Part shown: piece by piece, positions 67-9,976 of the stretch | Position numbering within the stretch: the first letter of the stretch is position 1 | Layout of the letters: the number at the start of each line of letters is the position of its first letter | NCBI GenBank assembly: GCA_030524125.1 | Contig: JAUNHB010000010.1 | Span: 1 to 50,052, forward strand | Origin: Eubacteriales bacterium | GTDB lineage: Bacteria; Bacillota; Clostridia; Lachnospirales; Lachnospiraceae | Direction: 5' to 3' | DNA: 50,052 bases | Program-made: the position numbers and the translations under genes | Notes under the pieces: model-generated | Database searches by the model: none | What the model saw: only the letters and a program-made list of their open reading frames with translations | What the model was told of the DNA's origin: nothing

Positions 67-417
67 TTAATAGGTATAGTTCTCGATCTCCACCTTGTCC
101 ACCTCCTGATACGGAGCCAGCGTGGAGATCATCTTGATCGGCTTGTCGTAGCTGTTCTTGCAGTAGTGCACCTCTCCGGGCTCGATGTGGATGAGCTGGC
201 CGGGGTACATGTGGTTGACGACGCCGTCCACCACGATGTCGATCTCGCCCTCGAGAATGAAGAAATCCTCCTCCATCACGTTGTGATAGTGCGCCTTAAA
301 ATCCTGACCGGGCATGAACTGCACGACGGCGAAGTTCATGCGGGGGCCTTTCATCAAATATTTCGGACCGCTGTCGCCGAAACGGTACTCTCTGTCTTTT
401 TCATCAACAATATACAT
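67..417 (-). CDS. Single-domain cupin protein at the end of the lsrR-lsrK operon
   Basis: This is a 116-residue single cupin barrel. Metal-ligand candidates are H43 and H45 (HYH), E49/E50, and H84 in the second motif (PGEVH), so it probably binds a divalent metal. No signal peptide or membrane segment is seen, so it should be cytosolic. The ATG follows AAAGGAG by about 8 bases and lies 27 bp after lsrK, which suggests cotranscription as the third gene of lsrR-lsrK-cupin. Small cupins often act as isomerases or epimerases on sugars and keto-acids. The Lsr pathway needs an isomerase (LsrG, a ferredoxin-fold protein) that is not encoded here, so this cupin is a candidate replacement. That role is inferred from context; the cupin fold is well supported. 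Confidence 0.88.
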   Translation of the reverse strand: MYIVDEKDREYRFGDSGPKYLMKGPRMNFAVVQFMPGQDFKAHYHNVMEEDFFILEGEIDIVVDGVVNHMYPGQLIHIEPGEVHYCKNSYDKPIKMISTLAPYQEVDKVEIENYTY

Positions 418-444
418 GCTGCTGATCTCCTTTCCCTTTCCTGT

Positions 445-2010
445 TTATAATCCGGGCGCGACCCACATGGGTTTCGTGACGCCGTCATTGACAAGCTGAA
501 GCTGCGCCGCGTAGACCTTTCTCCACGTGGCGTAGAGCTGATCGTACACCTGTCGGTGCTCCGGGTTGGGCGTGAAGACGCGGTCCCATTTGACCGTGCG
601 CGCCGCGCCCTCCTCGATGCTCTTGTAGAGTCCGACGCCGTAGCCGGCCAGGATCGCGGCTCCCAGAGCGGTGGCCTCCTTGACTTCGGGGACGCGCACC
701 GGCATTCCCAGCACGTCCGCCAGGATCTGCGACCAGAGCGGGCTTTTGGAGGCTCCGCCTGCAAAGATGATCTCGGACGGCATATTTCCGGTGGCTTCCT
801 TCACCAGCTCCATATGCCCCTTCACGAGGAGGGCGGTATTTTCCAAAATGGCCCGGTAGAAGGTGTAGCGGTTGAATTTTTCCGGATCCAGCTCAAAATT
901 GGTGAAGGTGGGAGCCGCGTGCTTCCAACCGATAAAGTTCATGATGTCGCTGAACGCGCATACCATGCCGTAGCTTCCGGCGGGGATCTTTTCGGCCTCT
1001 CGGTTCATGACGTCGTAAGGATCCGTCCCTTCCTTAGCAGCCTGCTCTTTCTCTGCCTGGCAGAAGCCGTCACGGAACCAGCGCATGACCAGACCGGGCT
1101 TGAAGGCGAGAGCCTCATACTGCCAGACGCCGGGGACGGCGTGACAGTTGACGCGCACGCGGCAGCCGGGATCGGTGGCCCCGCTGTCGGTGTTGAACTC
1201 ATACTGCCAGAAGCTGCCGCCGAAGACGGCTGCCTGGCCGGGCAGCGTCGCGCCCACGCCGATGGTGCCAAGCTGGCAGTCGCCGCCGCCCACCACCACG
1301 GGAGTTCCCGCGAGCAGACCGGTGTCCTTCGCGCCCTTTTCGCTGACGCTGGCCAGAACCGTGCCGCACTCGGCCACCGGCGGGAAAATGTCGCCCCGCA
1401 GGCCGCATTTCTCGGCGATGGAGGAATCCCACGTCCGGCTCTGCAGATCGAAGATGCCGGTGGTGGAGCCGTTGCTGGGCTCCACGGCCTCGACGCCGGT
1501 CAGCTTCCGGATCAGCCAGTCGTTGAACATGCCCACGGCCGCCGTCTTTTCATAGACCTCGGGCATCTTGTCCTTGACCCACAGAAGACGCGGAAGAGCG
1601 CCGAGCGCGTAGGTCTGTCCGCTCTTTAAATAAATCTCCTTCTCGAGGCCCGGATACATGCGGATGAGACGTCCGACCTCGTCGTCGCTCCGGGCGTCCA
1701 CATTGGCGCAGGCCCAGATCTCGTTCCCTTCATGGTCATAGAGCACGATGCCCTCTCTCATACAGGTGGTGGACACGGCCGCCACCGAAGCGGGATCGAT
1801 GCCCGTCTTTTCAAAGACGCCGCGGACGCACTCGCAGGCCAGAGCCCAGTTGTGGGTCCAGTCGAAATCCATACTGCCCGGATAACGGGGATCCTCCCGG
1901 TGTTCCCATTCCCGCTGGACGCATCCGACCTGAGCGCCGTCCAGAGAGAAGAGAACGGCGCGGACGCTTCCGGTCCCGGCGTCGATCGCCATCAAATACT
2001 GTTCTGCCAT
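445..2010 (-). CDS. lsrK: Autoinducer-2 kinase LsrK (FGGY family)
   Basis: The predicted 521-residue cytosolic kinase phosphorylates the open form of autoinducer-2 (DPD) with ATP, trapping it and making the inducer of LsrR. The N-terminal MAIDAGTGS phosphate loop, the GGGD motif with candidate catalytic base D244, the conserved MREGIVLY and IWACANVDAR stretches, and the C-terminal APGL ending all match remembered enteric LsrK, which has about 530 residues. I chose ATG 2010 over an upstream in-frame ATG because AAGGAGGG precedes it by a normal spacing. It begins 26 bp after the lsrR stop and is followed by the cupin gene. Other FGGY kinases (xylulose, glycerol) are possible in principle, but residue agreement and the lsr neighbours make LsrK very likely. 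Confidence 0.93.
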   Translation of the reverse strand: MAEQYLMAIDAGTGSVRAVLFSLDGAQVGCVQREWEHREDPRYPGSMDFDWTHNWALACECVRGVFEKTGIDPASVAAVSTTCMREGIVLYDHEGNEIWACANVDARSDDEVGRLIRMYPGLEKEIYLKSGQTYALGALPRLLWVKDKMPEVYEKTAAVGMFNDWLIRKLTGVEAVEPSNGSTTGIFDLQSRTWDSSIAEKCGLRGDIFPPVAECGTVLASVSEKGAKDTGLLAGTPVVVGGGDCQLGTIGVGATLPGQAAVFGGSFWQYEFNTDSGATDPGCRVRVNCHAVPGVWQYEALAFKPGLVMRWFRDGFCQAEKEQAAKEGTDPYDVMNREAEKIPAGSYGMVCAFSDIMNFIGWKHAAPTFTNFELDPEKFNRYTFYRAILENTALLVKGHMELVKEATGNMPSEIIFAGGASKSPLWSQILADVLGMPVRVPEVKEATALGAAILAGYGVGLYKSIEEGAARTVKWDRVFTPNPEHRQVYDQLYATWRKVYAAQLQLVNDGVTKPMWVAPGL

Positions 2011-2036: not shown

Positions 2037-2972
2037 TCACTTGTTATCTCCCAGCTCCAGAACGTCGGCGGCGGTTTTCTCGTCGGTGATCAGGATATCC
2101 AGGTAGCCTCCCCGCAGGGCGGCCAGAATCGCTTCCGCTTTTTTCTTGCCTCCGGCCACGCCGATGGTGTTGCGCATGGTCTTTAACGTTTCCAGAGACG
2201 TGCTCATAAGACGCCCCTCCAGATCCGACGGAACGAGACGCCCGTCCCGGTCGATGAAATGACAGAGCATATCGCCCACGGCCCCCTTCATGGAGAGGAG
2301 CAAAAGCTCGTTCTGGGTGAGCGTGCCGTTGGTGATCAGCGTGGCGTTCTCGTCGATGCCGCCGATACCCACGACCGACATCTGCGCCAGCGTGGCCATG
2401 CTGCGGATCTGCTCCACGCCGGGCTCGCGTTCCATGGCGTCCACGATCTCCGCGTTTGCCATGACGAGAGGCGCGGGCGTCAGATAGAGCTTCGCGTTGA
2501 AAATGCTGGACTGCGTATTGGGCAGGTAATAGCTGACGCCTCCGGTCAGCGACACCACGCTCACCGGAAACTCGCAGATGTTTGCCAGGTGGTTCAGGAT
2601 CCGGCTGGAGGTGTCGCCGTAGCCCATGTTGATGTAGCCGGATTTGTCCAGCCGCTCATGGATGTACATGGCGGCGGCCTGCGCTACGCTCTCGTTGATG
2701 TCCCGGTCGTACATGGGGGACGGCACGACGAACGCGTCCTTCAGGCCGTACTGACTGATGAGCGCGCGCTCCACCTGCATGCGGCCGGTGTCTCCGTCCC
2801 GCACGGAAAAATGGATGACGCCGGTCTTGCGCGCCTTATCCAGAAGACGGTTTACCCGCAGCCTTGGAATGCCGAGATATTCGCCGATCTCCTGCTGCGT
2901 AAACCCTTCTATATAGTAATACCATGCGACCTTCACCAGAAGCTTTTCTTCGTAAGCGTATTCCTTCTCCAA
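2037..2972 (-). CDS. lsrR: Lsr operon repressor LsrR (SorC/DeoR family)
   Basis: This 311-residue SorC-family regulator has an N-terminal helix-turn-helix (about residues 24-46) and a C-terminal sugar-phosphate-isomerase-like effector domain. Phrases such as VAWYYY, GFTQQEIGEYLG, TPAPL, KGAVGD and GVAGGKKKAEAI match enteric LsrR. In enteric bacteria LsrR represses the lsr promoters until phospho-AI-2 binds. A TTG start at 2972 is preferred because GAGGTGG lies 7 bases upstream and gives the usual length; longer in-frame starts fall in the promoter region. The gene is divergent from lsrA, the same layout as in enterics. Repeated AAATGTT sites just after its probable transcription start suggest autorepression. 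Confidence 0.93.
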   Translation of the reverse strand: MEKEYAYEEKLLVKVAWYYYIEGFTQQEIGEYLGIPRLRVNRLLDKARKTGVIHFSVRDGDTGRMQVERALISQYGLKDAFVVPSPMYDRDINESVAQAAAMYIHERLDKSGYINMGYGDTSSRILNHLANICEFPVSVVSLTGGVSYYLPNTQSSIFNAKLYLTPAPLVMANAEIVDAMEREPGVEQIRSMATLAQMSVVGIGGIDENATLITNGTLTQNELLLLSMKGAVGDMLCHFIDRDGRLVPSDLEGRLMSTSLETLKTMRNTIGVAGGKKKAEAILAALRGGYLDILITDEKTAADVLELGDNK

Positions 2973-2989
2973 AATCTGTTCCACCTCTA

Positions 2990-3227: not shown

Positions 3228-3249
3228 AAGGTTGAAGGGAGGAAGTTAC

Positions 3250-4764
3250 TTGCCGGGGAAAACGTTGCTGGACATTAAGAACATTCATAAGTCATTCGGC
3301 ATGAACGCGGTCCTGAAAGGAATCAGCCTGGAGCTTGGCGAAGGAGAGGTGCTGGCCCTGATCGGGGGGAACGGCGCCGGAAAAAGTACGCTGATGAAGA
3401 TCATTATGGGCATCTATCATCAGGACAGCGGAGAACTGTTCGTCAGGGGAGAGAAGGTCACTTCCAATAAGACAAGCACGGCGCTGGCCAACGGTATTTA
3501 CATGGTGCCGCAGGAGCCGCTGCTCTTTCCAAACATGACGGTGGAGGAAAATATCGTCATCGGCTTTGAGCGGAAGGCGTCGGACCTGCACCGGGAGCTG
3601 GTCGAGGTCATGCAGGAGGTGGGATGGGAGCTGGAGCTTTCCAGAAAAGCAAGCAGCCTTTCCATCGCGGAGCAGCAGATGGTGGAGATCCTGAGAGGTC
3701 TTCTGCGCCATGCGAGCATTCTGATCATGGACGAGCCTACCAGCGCGCTGGCATTTGACGAGACGGAGAGCCTGTTCAAGAGCGTCAACGAGCTTCGGGC
3801 CAAGGGGATCGGGATCATCTATATCACCCACCGTCTGGCGGAGGTGTTCCAGATCGCGACGGATGTGGCGATCATGAGAGACGGAAGACTTCCGATCCGC
3901 GGAAAGGTGGAGGAATTTACGAGAGAGATGCTGGTGAAGGGACTGCTTCCGCCGGACACGCAGGAGCAGGAGGCGACGCTCAAGGAGCATCTGAAAAAAA
4001 TCGATTATGAGAACGCTGCGCCGGTGTTTGAGCTTCAGAATTACAGCGGCTACGGCTTTCAGGATATTTCGCTGAAGGTTTACCCGGGAGAGATCCTCGG
4101 GCTGGCGGGAGTGATCGGAGCCGGAAGGACCGAGATCGCCACGACCGTGTTCGGAAGAGACAAGGTGCTGGGCGGAAAGGCCATCCTGGACGGACGGGAC
4201 ATCACGGGACTGTCCACCAGAAAGGTGCTGGAGGCCGGCGTCAACTATGTGCCGGAGGACCGGCATCTCCACGGGCTGTTCAAGATCAGCGACGTGGCGG
4301 CCAACACTACGAGCGCCATGCTGGACGATCCGTCCATGGGCAGGTTCTTCTTGAATAAGAAGGAAGAATACCGGATGACCCAGAAGTATGTGGACGATTT
4401 CCGCACGAAGGTGACGGGACAGGGACAGCTGGTGGGAAGCCTCTCGGGAGGAAACCAGCAGAAGGTGGTCATCGGGCGCAGCCTGTCCACATCGCCGAAG
4501 CTGGTGATCCTGGACGAGCCCACCCGCGGGATCGACGCGGCGGCCAGAGGCGACGTCTATACGATCATCCATGAGCTTCGGAATCAGGGAGTCTCGGTGC
4601 TGCTCATATCATCCGATATGGAGGAGATCGTGGAGCTCTCCGACCGCGTCATGACCGTGTGCCAGGGGCGGATCAACGGAGAATTTACAGGAGAGGACAT
4701 CAATCAGGACAATCTGATGGCGGCCTCCTTCGGTATTACGAAAAGCGCGGAGGTGGAAGCATGA
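3250..4764 (+). CDS. lsrA: AI-2 import ATP-binding protein LsrA
   Basis: This 504-residue protein has two fused ABC ATPase domains, as in sugar importers of the Rbs/Lsr type. The first has a full Walker A (GGNGAGKST, residues 39-47), a signature region and LIMDEPTSAL. The second has the degenerate GVIGAGRTE loop followed by an intact GSLSGGNQQK signature and LVILDEPTRGID. Length and layout match LsrA (~510 residues). It should power AI-2 uptake through LsrC/LsrD at the inner face of the membrane. The TTG start at 3250 follows GGGAGG by 7 bases; an in-frame TTG at 3232 has no ribosome site. The stop overlaps the lsrC start by four bases, implying translational coupling. Confidence 0.93.
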   Translation: MPGKTLLDIKNIHKSFGMNAVLKGISLELGEGEVLALIGGNGAGKSTLMKIIMGIYHQDSGELFVRGEKVTSNKTSTALANGIYMVPQEPLLFPNMTVEENIVIGFERKASDLHRELVEVMQEVGWELELSRKASSLSIAEQQMVEILRGLLRHASILIMDEPTSALAFDETESLFKSVNELRAKGIGIIYITHRLAEVFQIATDVAIMRDGRLPIRGKVEEFTREMLVKGLLPPDTQEQEATLKEHLKKIDYENAAPVFELQNYSGYGFQDISLKVYPGEILGLAGVIGAGRTEIATTVFGRDKVLGGKAILDGRDITGLSTRKVLEAGVNYVPEDRHLHGLFKISDVAANTTSAMLDDPSMGRFFLNKKEEYRMTQKYVDDFRTKVTGQGQLVGSLSGGNQQKVVIGRSLSTSPKLVILDEPTRGIDAAARGDVYTIIHELRNQGVSVLLISSDMEEIVELSDRVMTVCQGRINGEFTGEDINQDNLMAASFGITKSAEVEA

Positions 4765-5765
4765 AGAAGATCGTAAAAGCAAGAGAGTTCAGCAGCTTCC
4801 TGTTTCTGATCGCTCTGTTCCTGATTGTGGGGATCATCAACCCAAGCTTTCTGTCGGCGGACAATCTTACGGCCTGCTTTAATGAGAGCGTGGTTTACAT
4901 TATCGTATCGGCGGGAATGGCGTTCGCCATTTTCATCGGAGAGATCGACGTGTCGGTGGGCGCGAATCTGGGATTTACGGCGACGGTCGTCTCCTGCATG
5001 CTCCGGGACGGAGAGAGCTGGGCGCTGGCCTTCGCGGCGGGGATTGCGGTAGGCGCGCTGATCGGACTGTTCAACGGCTGGGGCGTGGCGGTCATGGGAG
5101 TGCCCTCCCTGATCTTTACGCTGGGCACCAACGGCGTCATGCGCGGCATGATGTACGTGTACACCGGAGGCGCGTGGGTGGAAAACCTTCCGGCGGCCTT
5201 CAAGCAGCTTTACACCACCACGCTTGTGGGAAGCTTGAGCATCTGCTTCGCGGTGACCGCGGTGCTGATCCTGCTCATTCATCTGGTTCTGAGAAATACA
5301 AAACGAGGCAAATACTTTATCGCAGTGGGAGACAATCCTTCCGGAGCAACGCTGGTCGGCATCCCGGCCACGCAGACCAAGGTGGCGGCCTATGTGATTT
5401 GCGGGATCCTGGCGGCCATCGCGGGAATCGTTTTTTCCTCCCGGATCGGCTTTGTGACGGCCACCTCCGGAAACGGCTATGAGATGAAAGCGGTGGCGGC
5501 CTGCGTGCTGGGAGGCATCAGCCTTTCCGGAGGCGTGGGAAGCGTGATCGGATCGTCCATCGGCGCGGTCATCATGGCGAGCATCAGCCGTCTGCTGGTG
5601 TTCATGGGCTTTGGCTCCACCTACGACAACGCCATTACGGGCATCATGCTGATCGTCATCGTGGTAGCCGACGCGCTGATGCAGCGCAGAGCGGCGGAGC
5701 AGAACCGCCGTCAGAGGCTTGCGGCCAGAACCGCGGCCCATGAGAAAGGAGGAGCGGCATCATGA
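4761..5765 (+). CDS. lsrC: AI-2 import permease LsrC
   Basis: This 334-residue integral membrane permease of the BPD_transp_2 (ribose/Lsr) family has about nine or ten hydrophobic segments. The central EIDVSVGANLGF and the VAACVLGGISLSGGVGSV stretch are typical of sugar ABC permeases. With LsrD it should form the heterodimeric AI-2 channel served by LsrA and LsrB. The start is the ATG overlapping the lsrA stop; in-frame codons further upstream lie inside lsrA and lack a ribosome site. The arginine/alanine-rich cytosolic tail (last ~25 residues) overlaps the start of lsrD by four bases. LsrC versus LsrD is assigned by gene order. Confidence 0.88.
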   Translation: MKKIVKAREFSSFLFLIALFLIVGIINPSFLSADNLTACFNESVVYIIVSAGMAFAIFIGEIDVSVGANLGFTATVVSCMLRDGESWALAFAAGIAVGALIGLFNGWGVAVMGVPSLIFTLGTNGVMRGMMYVYTGGAWVENLPAAFKQLYTTTLVGSLSICFAVTAVLILLIHLVLRNTKRGKYFIAVGDNPSGATLVGIPATQTKVAAYVICGILAAIAGIVFSSRIGFVTATSGNGYEMKAVAACVLGGISLSGGVGSVIGSSIGAVIMASISRLLVFMGFGSTYDNAITGIMLIVIVVADALMQRRAAEQNRRQRLAARTAAHEKGGAAS

Positions 5766-6790
5766 ATCAATCCTTTTCTCAGAAAGCAAAACGTTTCCTG
5801 AAGAGCTGGGAGCTGGTGCTGATCTGCATTCTGATCGCGGAGTTTCTCATCTTCGGAGCGGCGAACGAGAAGTTCCTGCGCCCGGCGATGCTCTTCAACA
5901 GCATGAACGATTTCATGTCCATCTGCATCATCTCTCTGTTCGTGACCTTTGTCATGATCACGGGCGGAATTGACATTCAGGCAGGTTCCATCGTGGGACT
6001 GACCTCCATCATCATCGGCGTATCCTGGCAGGATTTCGGATTCAACATCTGGACCGCCGCGGCGCTGGCCCTTGTGGTGGCGGTGATCTGCGGGGCGCTC
6101 TCGGGCTTCTTTGTAGCCTACTGCGGCGTGCAGGCCATGGTGGTCACTCTCGGAGGAAGCTTCCTGTACTCGGGGATCGCGCTCCTGGTATCCAATCTGG
6201 CGTCCACCGCCAGCTATCAGGGAATCAGCGGATTTCCGGAGTACTTTAAGATCCTGTCCAAATACAAACTGTTCGGGCTGATCCCGAGCCAGCTTCTGAT
6301 CTTTCTGGCGCTGGTGGTGATCGCCTATCTGGTGCTCCACAGATCCAAGTACGGAAGAAGGATCTTCCTTGTGGGTGTGAACCAGCAGGCGGCGGAATAT
6401 TCGGGGATCAACACAAGACTGATCATCATGAGCACCTATATGCTCTCGGCCGCCAGCGCGGCGGTGGCGGGCATCGTGCTGACCGCCTATCTCGGCACGT
6501 CCAAGAGCGATCTTGGAGCAAACTTTACGCTGAATATCATCACGGCGGTGGTGCTCGGCGGAACTCTGAGCACCGGAGGAAAGGGAAGCGTGGTCGGCAC
6601 GGCGCTGGCGTCCATGGTCATCGGACTGCTCCGCTTCGGACTTCCGCTCTGCTTCAAGGTGGGAACCCAGTATCTGGATATCCCGGTGGGGATCCTGCTT
6701 CTGGTGGTCGTGGTCGGAAGAGCGGTGGCGGCCAACCCGTCCATGGCGGGACTGTTTGCGGGGCTTAAGAAAAAGAAAGCATCCGCATGA
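5762..6790 (+). CDS. lsrD: AI-2 import permease LsrD
   Basis: This second permease (342 residues) has the same family fold as its upstream neighbour: an ITGGIDIQAGSIVGLTS loop and a VVLGGTLSTGGKGSV motif near the end, with about nine hydrophobic segments. It should pair with LsrC in the membrane. The ATG overlaps the lsrC stop (ATGA) and is preceded by AAAGGAG, which argues for coupled translation. A 74-base gap separates it from lsrB, which has its own strong ribosome site, so lsrB can be made in excess. No terminator is visible in that gap, only a weak 5-bp hairpin. Confidence 0.88.
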   Translation: MNQSFSQKAKRFLKSWELVLICILIAEFLIFGAANEKFLRPAMLFNSMNDFMSICIISLFVTFVMITGGIDIQAGSIVGLTSIIIGVSWQDFGFNIWTAAALALVVAVICGALSGFFVAYCGVQAMVVTLGGSFLYSGIALLVSNLASTASYQGISGFPEYFKILSKYKLFGLIPSQLLIFLALVVIAYLVLHRSKYGRRIFLVGVNQQAAEYSGINTRLIIMSTYMLSAASAAVAGIVLTAYLGTSKSDLGANFTLNIITAVVLGGTLSTGGKGSVVGTALASMVIGLLRFGLPLCFKVGTQYLDIPVGILLLVVVVGRAVAANPSMAGLFAGLKKKKASA

Positions 6791-6864: not shown

Positions 6865-8034
6865 ATGAAAAGAAAGGCTTTAGCGATGATGCTGGCTGCA
6901 ACGATGGTCATGGGACTTGCCGGCTGCGGCTCATCCAACGACGCGGCTGCGGACGCCACGCCCGCAGAGGAGACGACGGACGATGCGGCGGCTGCGGATG
7001 ACGCGGAGGCGGCGGACGATGCGGCGGCTTCTGAGGGAGCTTCCATCGAGGGCATGACGGTGGCGTTTATCCCGAAGGTAACCGGAAACGCATTCTTCGA
7101 GTCTGCAAACGACGGCGCGCAGGAGTATGCGGCGCAGTGGGGGATCAACGTAGAGTACATGGGCAACTCCGTCGCAGGAGCGGCAGAGCAGGTTGAGGTT
7201 ATCAACCAGGCCATCAACGCAGGCGTGGACGCGATCTGCATCTCCACCGTGGATGCGGCGGGAGTATCCGACGCTCTGAAGAACGCGCAGGATATGGGCA
7301 TCGTCGTCTGCACGTGGGACTCTGACGCCAATGTGGAGGATCGCTCCCTCATGGTATCCCAGGGAACTCCCGAGGTGCTCGGCGAGATGCTGGTCAGCAT
7401 GAGCGTGGACGCTCTCGAGAAGAGAGGCAAGGATCCGGCGGCTGACGAGATCAAATATTGCTGGCACTATTCGCAGGCGACCGTTACCGACCAGAACTCC
7501 TGGCAGGTGGCAGGCGAGGCTTATATCGCAGAGAACTATCCGAACTGGGTCAACGTAGCTCCGGAGAACTACTACAGCGAGCAGGATGCGGAGAAGGCCG
7601 TCACGGTAGGCGCTTCCGTTCTTGCCAATCATTCGGACATCGACCTGATCATCTGCAACGACTCCACCGCGCTTCCGGGACAGCTTCAGGCGGCCCAGAA
7701 CGCAGGACTTGACAGAGATTCCATCACGATCACCGGATTCGCTTCCCCGAACTCCATCAAAGAGTACTGCAAGGCAGGCGTTCTCTATGAGTGGGGACTG
7801 TGGGACTGCCAGATCCAGGGAGCGATGGGCTGCTATGTGGCCGCATACCTGGCAGCAGGCAACACGGTAGCGGTAGGCGACACCATCTCCATTCCGGGCA
7901 TCGGCGACGTGACGGTTGAGCCCAACGACAGCATCGCTGAGGGCGCGGCTACGGGCGACAGCAACAACGGCGTTGTGCTTCTTCCGGAGAGAGCTGTGTT
8001 TGACGAGAGCAACATGGACAACTACAACTTCTAA
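6865..8034 (+). CDS. lsrB: AI-2 binding lipoprotein LsrB (non-canonical pocket)
   Basis: This 389-residue lipoprotein has a signal peptide ending in LAG-C21, an Asp/Ala-rich linker (about residues 25-58) and a type I periplasmic-binding domain. Conserved stretches include FIPK, TWDSD, TVTDQN, SIPGIGDV and VVLLPER. Aligned by eye to enteric LsrB, the six AI-2 contacts K35, D116, D166, Q167, P220 and A222 become K71, D152, D209, Q210, N265 and S267: four kept and two replaced. Clostridial receptors with altered pocket residues have been shown to bind AI-2, so binding remains likely. It should be anchored outside the membrane and hand AI-2 to LsrC/LsrD. AAAGGAGG lies 8 bases before the ATG. Confidence 0.92.
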   Translation: MKRKALAMMLAATMVMGLAGCGSSNDAAADATPAEETTDDAAAADDAEAADDAAASEGASIEGMTVAFIPKVTGNAFFESANDGAQEYAAQWGINVEYMGNSVAGAAEQVEVINQAINAGVDAICISTVDAAGVSDALKNAQDMGIVVCTWDSDANVEDRSLMVSQGTPEVLGEMLVSMSVDALEKRGKDPAADEIKYCWHYSQATVTDQNSWQVAGEAYIAENYPNWVNVAPENYYSEQDAEKAVTVGASVLANHSDIDLIICNDSTALPGQLQAAQNAGLDRDSITITGFASPNSIKEYCKAGVLYEWGLWDCQIQGAMGCYVAAYLAAGNTVAVGDTISIPGIGDVTVEPNDSIAEGAATGDSNNGVVLLPERAVFDESNMDNYNF

Positions 8035-8158: not shown

Positions 8159-9043
8159 ATGGCAGATAAAGACGGATTAAAAGTGGCAAAGGACTACCAT
8201 GTGGACGTTCCGTTTGCAAATCAGGAGGGCTTCTATGTAAAGGGAGCAAACAGTCTGGACTGGGGCATGAAAAAGCACCTGTCCAATATTTTCAACCCGA
8301 AGAGCGGCAATTCCGTGATGTTCGCGTTTGACCACGGATATTTCATGGGCTCCACGGCAGGACTGGAGAGACTGGATCTCCTTCTTCCGAAGCTGGCTCC
8401 TTATGTGGATGTGTTTATGGGAACGAGAGGCGCCATCCGAAGTTGCGTTCCGCCGGAGATCACCAAGGGCATCGCGCTGCGCGTAAGCTCCGGATCTTCC
8501 ATGATCAACGACGATCTTTCCCATGAGGTTGTGGCTGTGGACATCGAGGATTCTATCCGCATGAACGCCGACTGCATGGCGGTGCAGACCTTTATCGGCG
8601 CGGACGGACAGCTTTCCAGCATCGACAACCTGTCCAGAGTCATCAATGCCGGTATGCGCTACAGCATCCCGACGCTGGGCGTCGTGGCCGTCGGCAAGGA
8701 CATGGAGCGGACCGACCGCTTCTTCAAGCTGGCGACCCGGATCGTGGCCGAGATGGGCGTGCAGCTGGTGAAGACGTACAACTGCGACAACTTTGAGGAG
8801 GTCGTGGCGGCGTGCCCGGTTCCCATCGTCGTGGCGGGAGGCAAGAAGCTTCCGGAGGACGAGGCCTTGACGCTGGCTTACACCGTGATCTCCAAGGGAG
8901 CCCGCGGAGTCGATATGGGAAGAAATATTTTCCAGAGCGAGCATCCGGTAGAGATGGCGCAGGCGGTGGCCAAGGTCGTCCACGAGGGCTTCACGGACAA
9001 GGAAGCGTACGAGTTCTTCCAGGACATCACGCACAAAGGATAA
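8159..9043 (+). CDS. lsrF: 3-hydroxy-5-phosphonooxypentane-2,4-dione thiolase LsrF
   Basis: This 294-residue aldolase-fold enzyme of the AI-2 degradation pathway transfers the acetyl group of the isomerised phospho-AI-2 to CoA, giving acetyl-CoA and dihydroxyacetone phosphate. It aligns nearly end to end with enteric LsrF: SLDWGM, SNIFNPKSG, MFAFDHGYF, VGKDMERTDRFFKLATRI, PIVVAGGKKLPE and GVDMGRNIFQSEHPV. The Schiff-base lysine in the LVKTY motif is K205 here, matching enteric K203. It follows lsrB after two hairpins and is six bases from the AEC transporter gene. Other class I aldolases are conceivable, but similarity and context make LsrF nearly certain. Confidence 0.94.
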   Translation: MADKDGLKVAKDYHVDVPFANQEGFYVKGANSLDWGMKKHLSNIFNPKSGNSVMFAFDHGYFMGSTAGLERLDLLLPKLAPYVDVFMGTRGAIRSCVPPEITKGIALRVSSGSSMINDDLSHEVVAVDIEDSIRMNADCMAVQTFIGADGQLSSIDNLSRVINAGMRYSIPTLGVVAVGKDMERTDRFFKLATRIVAEMGVQLVKTYNCDNFEEVVAACPVPIVVAGGKKLPEDEALTLAYTVISKGARGVDMGRNIFQSEHPVEMAQAVAKVVHEGFTDKEAYEFFQDITHKG

Positions 9044-9049
9044 GGACAG

Positions 9050-9976
9050 ATGGAGCTTGCGGTAATTCGTATGGTGCTTCCGGTGCTGGTCATGATCGGG
9101 ATCGGATATGTCTGCAATCGGAAGCAGATCTTTGATATGAATGGCCTGAAAGGGTTGAAGGCATTGCTGGGAGACATCATGCTCCCGGTGATGCTTTTCA
9201 ACGCTTTTTTCACGGCCTCCTACAGCATCCGCGTGGTCGTGGTCTTTCTCGTGGTCTATCTGGGATTCGGAGCGGCGATCCTTCTGGGCTACGCGCTCCG
9301 GCCCGCCGTGCGGCCCTACGGGAAATATCTGCCGTTTCTGCTCTCCAGCGCGGAGGGCGGGATGCTCGGATACGCCCTGTACGGTCTCATCGTGGGCGGC
9401 CAGTCCGGCTTCGCGGCGGTGGATCTGGGGCAGACGGTGTTCGCCTACACGGTGTGGCTTGGCTGCCTGACCGGGACGGACGGCGGGAAGGCGGATCCGA
9501 AGGCGCTTCTGAAAAATATGTTTTCCAATAAATGTTTTCTCGGGATGGCGCTTGGCATCGTGCTGGGGGCTTCCGGCGTCGGAGGTCTGGTCATGAGCTC
9601 CTTTGCGGGCGGCATCGTGAGCCAGCTGATCGGCACGATCACGGCGCCTATCAGCGCGCTGGTGCTTCTGATGGTGGGATATGAGCTGAATCTGAAAAAG
9701 GAGCTTCTCTGGCCGGTGGCAAAGACGATCGTCCTTCGTCTGGCGGTGATGGCGGCGCTTCTGCTGGCGGCAAACCTGATCATCTTCGGCCTGTTCCCCT
9801 TCGACCGGGAGTTGGAGATCGCGCTGATGATCCTCTACGCGCTGCCCGCGCCTTTTATCATCCCGATCTTCTCCGAGGTGGGGAAGGACGGGGAGTATGT
9901 GTCCACCTGCCTGTCGGCTCACACGCTTGTGACCGTGGCGCTCTACGCGGCCATCGCCGTGTACGGCATGAGCTGA
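9050..9976 (+). CDS. AEC-family (auxin efflux carrier-like) transporter
   Basis: This 308-residue membrane protein has about ten hydrophobic segments in two halves, as in the AEC/bile-acid-arsenite fold. Typical elements are LGDIMLPVMLFNAFF near the start, the central GIVLGASG helix, and a C-terminal LPAPFIIPIFSEVGKDGEYVSTCLSAHTLVT stretch. AEC carriers export organic anions or other small solutes. The ATG is six bases after lsrF and no terminator intervenes, so it should be the last gene of the lsr operon. That placement suggests a substrate linked to AI-2, such as AI-2 itself or a by-product of its breakdown. This is inference; the family assignment is secure and the substrate unknown. Confidence 0.85.
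   Translation: MELAVIRMVLPVLVMIGIGYVCNRKQIFDMNGLKGLKALLGDIMLPVMLFNAFFTASYSIRVVVVFLVVYLGFGAAILLGYALRPAVRPYGKYLPFLLSSAEGGMLGYALYGLIVGGQSGFAAVDLGQTVFAYTVWLGCLTGTDGGKADPKALLKNMFSNKCFLGMALGIVLGASGVGGLVMSSFAGGIVSQLIGTITAPISALVLLMVGYELNLKKELLWPVAKTIVLRLAVMAALLLAANLIIFGLFPFDRELEIALMILYALPAPFIIPIFSEVGKDGEYVSTCLSAHTLVTVALYAAIAVYGMS

Follow-up and report, generated by a model that had tools for sequence, protein, structure and literature searches.

Phospho-AI-2 is removed by LsrG, a protein of the ferredoxin-like ABM fold, together with LsrF, and this removal ends the AI-2 response. In the described pathway, LsrG isomerises phospho-DPD and LsrF passes an acetyl group of the hydrated product on to CoA, freeing DHAP (PMC8016206, excerpt), with K203 as the catalytic lysine of LsrF (PMC2728841, excerpt). 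A further gene beside lsrK has been known since 2012. It is annotated as a mannose-6-phosphate or sugar phosphate isomerase in the B. cereus group, Spirochaeta smaragdinae and S. enterica, it belongs to the Salmonella LsrR regulon, and a possible role in processing AI-2-P has been raised for it (PMC3420918); an excerpted figure legend of the same paper marks an lsrG end in B. cereus as well. Judging by position and annotation, this gene is probably the lsrK-adjacent cupin that we describe below, and STM4071, which is next to lsrK by gene number, probably corresponds to it by position. STM4071 is listed as a hypothetical protein at 2.02 among the changed genes of a fabR mutant, alongside lsr genes (PMC4804515, excerpt), and STM4071-80 are grouped as quorum sensing (lsr) (PMC11000858, excerpt). 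The words cupin and Clostridi- are absent from the text of the 2012 paper, its section 13 does not propose a replacement of LsrG, and the open-access literature that we searched held no statement of a cupin replacing LsrG.

Cupins tied to other sugar pathways offer two further comparisons. KdgF is a small cupin with a sugar-like substrate, as the cupin studied here may be, and KdgF-like enzymes catalyse ring opening (PMC11381880, excerpt); KdgF differs in its pathway and its gene neighbours, and matches our cupin profile weakly. The DUF4867 cupins SftX and SqvB resemble our case as cupins without an assigned step that are tied to a sugar pathway, and a ring-opening role has been suggested for the sulfoglycolysis-locus cupin; unlike our case, they belong to sulfoglycolysis, where the enzymes of the key steps are already known (PMC11968277, excerpt).

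The lsr locus of the window

We analysed a stretch of 50,052 nucleotides (the window), which is the entire contig C56 of a 2.39-Mb genome in 95 contigs that is 80.48% complete. Its lsr genes are arranged divergently: the minus strand carries lsrR-lsrK-cupin, the plus strand lsrACDB-lsrF. We treat the locus as an Lsr system because the AI-2 kinase LsrK (445..2010, minus strand; NF008187, 747.7 bits, cut-off 528) and the 3-hydroxy-5-phosphonooxypentane-2,4-dione thiolase LsrF (8159..9043, plus strand; NF006081, 407 bits, cut-off 297) score above their curated NCBIfam cut-offs. The other products each have their own Lsr model as top match, yet fall under the equivalog cut-offs: the lsrR-like regulator (2037..2978, minus strand; NF011947, 227.8 bits, cut-off 486), whose start codon is our choice, the mechanical open reading frame (ORF) extending to 3167, and, on the plus strand, the lsrA-like ABC ATPase (3232..4764; NF011967, 536.6 bits, cut-off 586), the lsrC-like permease (4755..5765; NF011961, 253.8 bits, cut-off 388), the lsrD-like permease (5762..6790; NF011612, 248.4 bits, cut-off 500) and the lsrB-like AI-2 binding protein (6865..8034; NF011937, 302.7 bits, cut-off 384). 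The lysine at Salmonella position 203 is kept in the window LsrF and in the four other LsrF proteins that we aligned.

The cupin gene (67..417, minus strand) starts with ATG and encodes 116 amino acids; an AAAGGAG resembling a Shine-Dalgarno sequence lies 9 nt 5' of the start (427..433, minus strand), as read from the sequence. Its product is a member of the Cupin_2 family (PF07883, 58 bits, cut-off 27.2) and reaches no NCBIfam model above cut-off. The ORF, the Pfam match and the measured gap of 27 bp from the lsrK stop confirm the initial annotation in placing a 116-residue cupin third in lsrR-lsrK-cupin. The contig ends 66 bp past the cupin stop, so the rest of the cupin operon is out of view in this genome. 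Like the gene described in 2012, the window cupin adjoins lsrK, and it is 40% identical to the cupin beside lsrK in Salmonella. Unlike the window, the Salmonella locus keeps lsrG, and its cupin has R44 and C49 in place of Y44 and E49.

Directly 3' of lsrF (9050-9976) the window encodes an AEC-type transporter (PF03547, 31.2 bits, cut-off 25.7), and homologues of about 54% identity also come after lsrF in two other loci (L042 and L045).

LsrG and the cupin in the window's class

The initial annotation had held that lsrG is missing from the locus, and the search bore this out: the LsrG model NF007791 found no match in the window's genome (80% complete) at E<=0.001 or at E<=0.05, leaving no sign of lsrG elsewhere in that genome either. 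The window cupin itself does not match this model, which, with its predicted cupin-type all-strand fold, sets it apart from LsrG. Among the LsrK-bearing genomes of the window's class, none of the 14 (the window's included, hence 13 others) has LsrG over the cut-off; nine genomes were searched at an E-value of 0.05 and five more, with G366 again, at 0.01. Sub-threshold LsrG-like matches appear in three of the 14 (37.1 bits in G366, 26.9 in G1066 and 23.3 in G1089), and the remaining 11 gave no LsrG-like match at these E-values. The positive controls (W01, W04, G1149 and G1151) all have LsrG over the cut-off, the same search returned 107.8 bits in a Rhizobium genome, and an E. coli control genome matched LuxS and neither LsrK nor LsrG. 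LuxS is present in 12 of the 14 LsrK-bearing class genomes, among them the window's.

We also considered an lsrG hidden 3' of the cupin and, from eight of the 13 other class loci, rejected it. In seven of these eight, the next ORF of at least 70 amino acids is on the opposite strand; in G037 the cupin is followed by an ORF of 167 amino acids that shares its strand. Locus L043 gave no tblastn match to LsrG.

Had the cupin been absent from other lsr loci that lack lsrG, the proposal that it replaces LsrG would have suffered; the opposite was found, with a cupin beside lsrK in all 14 class loci and on a Lacticaseibacillus plasmid. In the window's family, LsrK is over the cut-off in 8/200 genomes, and close cupins (at least 112 bits) occur in 9/200, which include all eight (Fisher p = 1.6e-13). 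Generic cupins are common, with 64/200 family genomes matching at E<=0.001, and the 55 of these 64 whose cupins reach about 41 bits or less were dropped before counting. The ninth close cupin (G001, 46% identity) is on a short contig with an FGGY-type kinase of 24-25% identity. A second family has LsrK in 6/194 genomes and close cupins (at least 159 bits) in 7/194, after 18 of 25 cupin genomes at about 38 bits or less had been dropped. Its extra close cupin, in a genome without an LsrK match (G1071), is in a decayed lsr locus. There, L193 9762-12118 holds remnants of lsrK and lsrB, a split lsrF and an uninterrupted cupin.

The cupin adjoins lsrK in all 14 class genomes with LsrK over the cut-off (eight plus six), which rules out chance adjacency. 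We assign to an lsrK-linked group, of the STM4071 type, those cupins directly beside an over-cut-off lsrK, and the window cupin is one of them. The gap between the two genes, taken from the ends of tblastn matches, is roughly 11-110 bp in 13 loci and about 445 bp in G037. In G1032 all four genes of lsrR-lsrK-cupin-lsrF lie in this order on the same strand; the cupin begins 11 bp past lsrK, and its stop shares one base with the start of lsrF. When all ORFs of at least 60 amino acids in the 14 loci were compared with one another (tabulated for five of the loci, with frames antisense to lsr genes set aside), the families present in at least seven of the 14 neighbourhoods were the cupin and lsrR, K, A, C, D, B and F, with no others; at that level no other conserved gene of the locus offers itself as a substitute for LsrG. 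Distances among cupins and among LsrK proteins correlate at r = 0.93 (18 pairs), and at 0.47 within nine of the class.

We asked whether the cupin tracks LsrF instead of LsrK. LsrF is present in 10/200 genomes of the window's family, namely the eight lsr genomes and two more (G019 and G063), so that the cupin accompanies eight of ten LsrF genomes and eight of eight LsrK genomes; given this difference, and since LsrF in the two LsrF-only genomes lies beside DhaK/DhaL-like ORFs, we take the cupin to follow LsrK rather than LsrF. These two loci (L161 and L162) and a third (L052) have over-cut-off LsrF homologues beside DhaK/DhaL-like genes and no lsrK or Lsr transporter nearby, and the arrangement in G019 and G063, of LsrF with apparent dihydroxyacetone-kinase genes, resembles that of an annotated Parabacteroides record. 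Membership of the LsrF family alone is thus no marker of the AI-2 pathway. In G366, codon 152 of lsrF (L048 17071-17955) is an in-frame stop, within an otherwise complete-looking lsr locus.

In wider draws, LsrK was found in G000 and G366 among 391 genomes drawn across the class, and over the cut-off in 2/398 drawn across the phylum (G000 and G841); the genome searches score the best few candidates per genome (mostly three to seven), and carriers may be missed. G841 belongs to another class of the phylum (LsrK 589 bits), and its adjoining cupin is very different, lacks E49 and was not counted as an orthologue. That distant cupin (L142 1391-1804) lies about 21 bp past the LsrK-family kinase and near a weakly Lsr-like sugar transporter, making a second kinase-cupin pairing. 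Three genomes with LsrK below the cut-off (G936, G865 and G1143; 337-379 bits) were left out of the counts; tblastn found no cupin in the stretches retrieved from them. Scans of viral contigs with the cupin and LsrK alignments found no relatives, and a phage collection gave three records.

Loci that carry lsrG and the possible role of the cupin

For a view beyond the class, we scanned species genomes with the LsrK alignment and took the best 80 of 565, which were ordered by their similarity to a Deinococcus LsrK, an order that makes these 80 lean to Enterobacterales. Among these best 80 of 565, lsrG or an LsrG-like gene is present in 76 loci (retrieved flanks, at least 45 bits). Seventy of the 76 have no cupin within the retrieved flanks, and in six a cupin is, in addition, the gene directly past lsrK (Edwardsiella, Serratia sp. 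H1w, Entomohabitans, Mangrovibacter and two Citrobacter); a Salmonella record likewise has lsrG as well as a cupin beside lsrK. The remaining four of the best 80 have neither gene, one of them being a 4-kb contig. Tabulated over 94 loci (the 14 class loci and the best 80 of 565), both genes occur in 6, the cupin only in 14, lsrG only in 70 and neither in 4. The association has p = 5e-9, a value dominated by two lineages whose events are not independent; because the split follows phylogeny, it does not serve as an independent test.

LsrK is encoded on 79 plasmid records, and ten LsrK-bearing records were examined. A Lacticaseibacillus paracasei plasmid carries lsrK-cupin, with no LsrG match on the whole plasmid record. 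A Deinococcus plasmid also carries lsrK-cupin, with no match to lsrF or to an Lsr transporter in the 20 kb retrieved; its LsrG-like match (41.8 bits) is far from the pair. In seven alphaproteobacterial loci (L134 and L145-L150), an LsrG-like protein occupies the slot after lsrK that the cupin fills in the window's class, and the four of these proteins that were scored reach 99-110 bits against the LsrG model (cut-off 135). The step proposed for the cupin is the same as that of LsrG.

From these arrangements, the place of the cupin in AI-2 metabolism is well supported, and its linkage marks it firmly as a partner of LsrK; its role likely falls between LsrK and LsrF. It is the only good candidate within these lsr clusters for LsrG's step. 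We give somewhat less than an even chance to the reading that the cupin would be a dedicated phospho-AI-2 processing enzyme produced together with LsrK and that, in loci without lsrG, it would most likely carry out the isomerase step. Replacement of LsrG is the best single reading because LsrF is kept, LsrG was not found and the cupin is the sole extra gene common to the loci, and also because of the overlapping kinase-cupin-thiolase order in G1032 and the LsrG-like protein in the same slot elsewhere. The initial annotation had proposed such a replacement, and its proposal holds in part: linkage to lsrK in 14 of 14 loci and the failure to find LsrG speak for it, and against it stand the loci that carry both genes, in Salmonella and in six of the best 80 of 565, as well as the Deinococcus lsrK-cupin pair without an lsrF match in 20 kb.

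Since an enterobacterial clade combines the cupin with LsrG, and the Deinococcus locus shows no LsrF, it is possible, if rather unlikely, that the cupin performs another step on DPD or on phospho-DPD. Such a cupin might speed the opening of a ring, a dehydration or an exchange of anomers, much as KdgF makes unsaturated uronates linear, and would act either on AI-2 for LsrK, bringing cyclic forms to linear DPD, or on phospho-DPD. Pairing of the cupin with lsrK is strict even where lsrF was not seen (Deinococcus) or lsrG is present, which fits this idea, as do the ring opening by KdgF-like enzymes (PMC11381880, excerpt) and that suggested for the sulfoglycolysis cupin (PMC11968277, excerpt). DPD, moreover, exists in linear and in cyclic hydrated forms side by side, and the form bound by LsrB is the cyclic R-THMF (PMC8016206, excerpt). 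The 70 of 76 lsrG-bearing loci (among the best 80 of 565) with no cupin in their flanks weigh against it, since it would then be chiefly the bacteria without LsrG that need the different step. So does the comparison with solved proteins, in which the pectin degradation protein chains 5fpz/5fpx match the cupin profile weakly (E ~1e-4), behind many other cupins. We take these chains to be KdgF.

The seven alphaproteobacterial loci (at about 1.9-4.3 kb in each) have a RhaD-type class II aldolase after lsrB, in the place of lsrF, and no lsrF match; from its position, this aldolase is a possible replacement of LsrF. The contigs labelled Helicobacter or Sulfurovum among the best 80 of 565 have LsrK with neither an over-threshold lsrG nor a cupin, which also counts against the replacement of LsrG. 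Three loci labelled Helicobacter, Sulfurovum and Helicobacteraceae (L109, L110 and L120) have LsrK at 54-55% identity to the Deinococcus query and no match to an Lsr transporter or lsrF in the retrieved stretch; a class II aldolase is nearby in L110 and L120, and L120 also has a weak LsrG-like ORF after lsrK. In seven Serratia loci among the best 80 of 565 (L062, L067, L069, L071, L074, L085 and L088), lsrG adjoins lsrK and lies on the opposite strand, and the retrieved flanks gave no match to lsrF.

Cupin residues and a possible reaction

We aligned 19 cupins and examined the positions expected of a metal site. The initial annotation had named H43, H45, E49/E50 and H84; of these, H43, H45, E50 and H84 are invariant in 19/19, and E49, which lies beside this site, proved not to be universal. 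Also invariant in 19/19 are M1, R12, G17, P18, Y20, L21, G24, P25, G37, F52, G57, G73, P80, N88, P102 and D107. Ten cupins (nine from the class and one from Lacticaseibacillus) differ from seven LsrG-accompanied cupins at 19 positions, which include Y44 versus R44 and E49 versus C49. Six further class cupins all have E49, and two of them have F44. E49 is thereby found in 16 of 16 lsr-locus cupins of the class and Lacticaseibacillus, G1071 included, a set for which the check on LsrG covered 14 class genomes and the Lacticaseibacillus plasmid, with G1071 and the Lacticaseibacillus chromosome outside it. A 37-row tree places the cupins in two groups, with no clear branching to show one joint origin: six LsrG-accompanied cupins and that of Deinococcus form one supported clade, and the class and Lacticaseibacillus cupins form the other group, at whose base G1032 and a long-branched generic cupin branch in no settled order. 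An AlphaFold2 model built from seven of the 19 aligned cupins is almost all-strand (mean pLDDT 82.8, weak in residues 1-20). The nearest solved chains by sequence are generic cupins and quercetin dioxygenase, all distant, and neither an assay nor a solved structure of any close relative is known to us.

If the cupin does replace LsrG, LsrK would make phospho-DPD, and the cupin would bind its neighbouring carbonyl or enediol oxygens at a divalent metal whose ligands are H43, H45, E50 and H84. A nearby base, for which E49 is the candidate, would shift the carbonyl through an enediol to yield the 2,4-dione, which LsrF would then cleave to DHAP and acetyl-CoA. In this scheme we infer the metal binding, the substrate, the reaction and the role of E49. 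What is observed is that the gene is present with a conserved motif of metal type, that it is linked to lsrK, that no lsrG was detected and that LsrF has kept its lysine.

Binding of phospho-AI-2 by a non-catalytic cupin, serving as a sink or as a helper that tunes LsrR, would suit a gene that stands in one row with lsrR and lsrK, and the gene next to lsrK in Salmonella does change together with lsr genes (PMC4804515 and PMC11000858, excerpts). The invariance of all four metal-type positions points to chemistry instead, and we consider binding alone improbable. We judge it equally doubtful that the isomerisation is spontaneous or due to an unlinked enzyme, with the cupin serving an unrelated role: the sub-threshold LsrG-like proteins of three genomes (23-37 bits) speak for it, but 11 of the 14 genomes have no such match and the cupin is beside lsrK in all 14. 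Least probable is an oxygen-dependent enzyme that breaks the enediol oxidatively, in the way of acireductone dioxygenase, itself a cupin whose enediol substrate is chemically similar; the best solved matches do include quercetin dioxygenase, but the cupin carriers are probably anaerobes and have retained LsrF, which depends on an intact chain.

Returning to replacement of LsrG, we suggest, tentatively and at well under even confidence, that AI-2 breakdown may be modular, with LsrG or the cupin as isomerase and LsrF or a class II aldolase as cleaver; E49 cupins would then be a non-homologous LsrG in bacteria that lack LsrG, and the C49 cupins found beside LsrG would have taken another task. If an unrelated enzyme does perform this step, surveys based on lsrG overlook these AI-2 degraders, and studies of what becomes of AI-2 in mixed communities gain a new candidate enzyme. 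The same comparison suggests a testable role for the orphan gene that adjoins lsrK in loci of the Salmonella type, and it names residue 49 as separating the two cupin groups. At this residue, the Deinococcus cupin has E49 and that of G001 has Q49.
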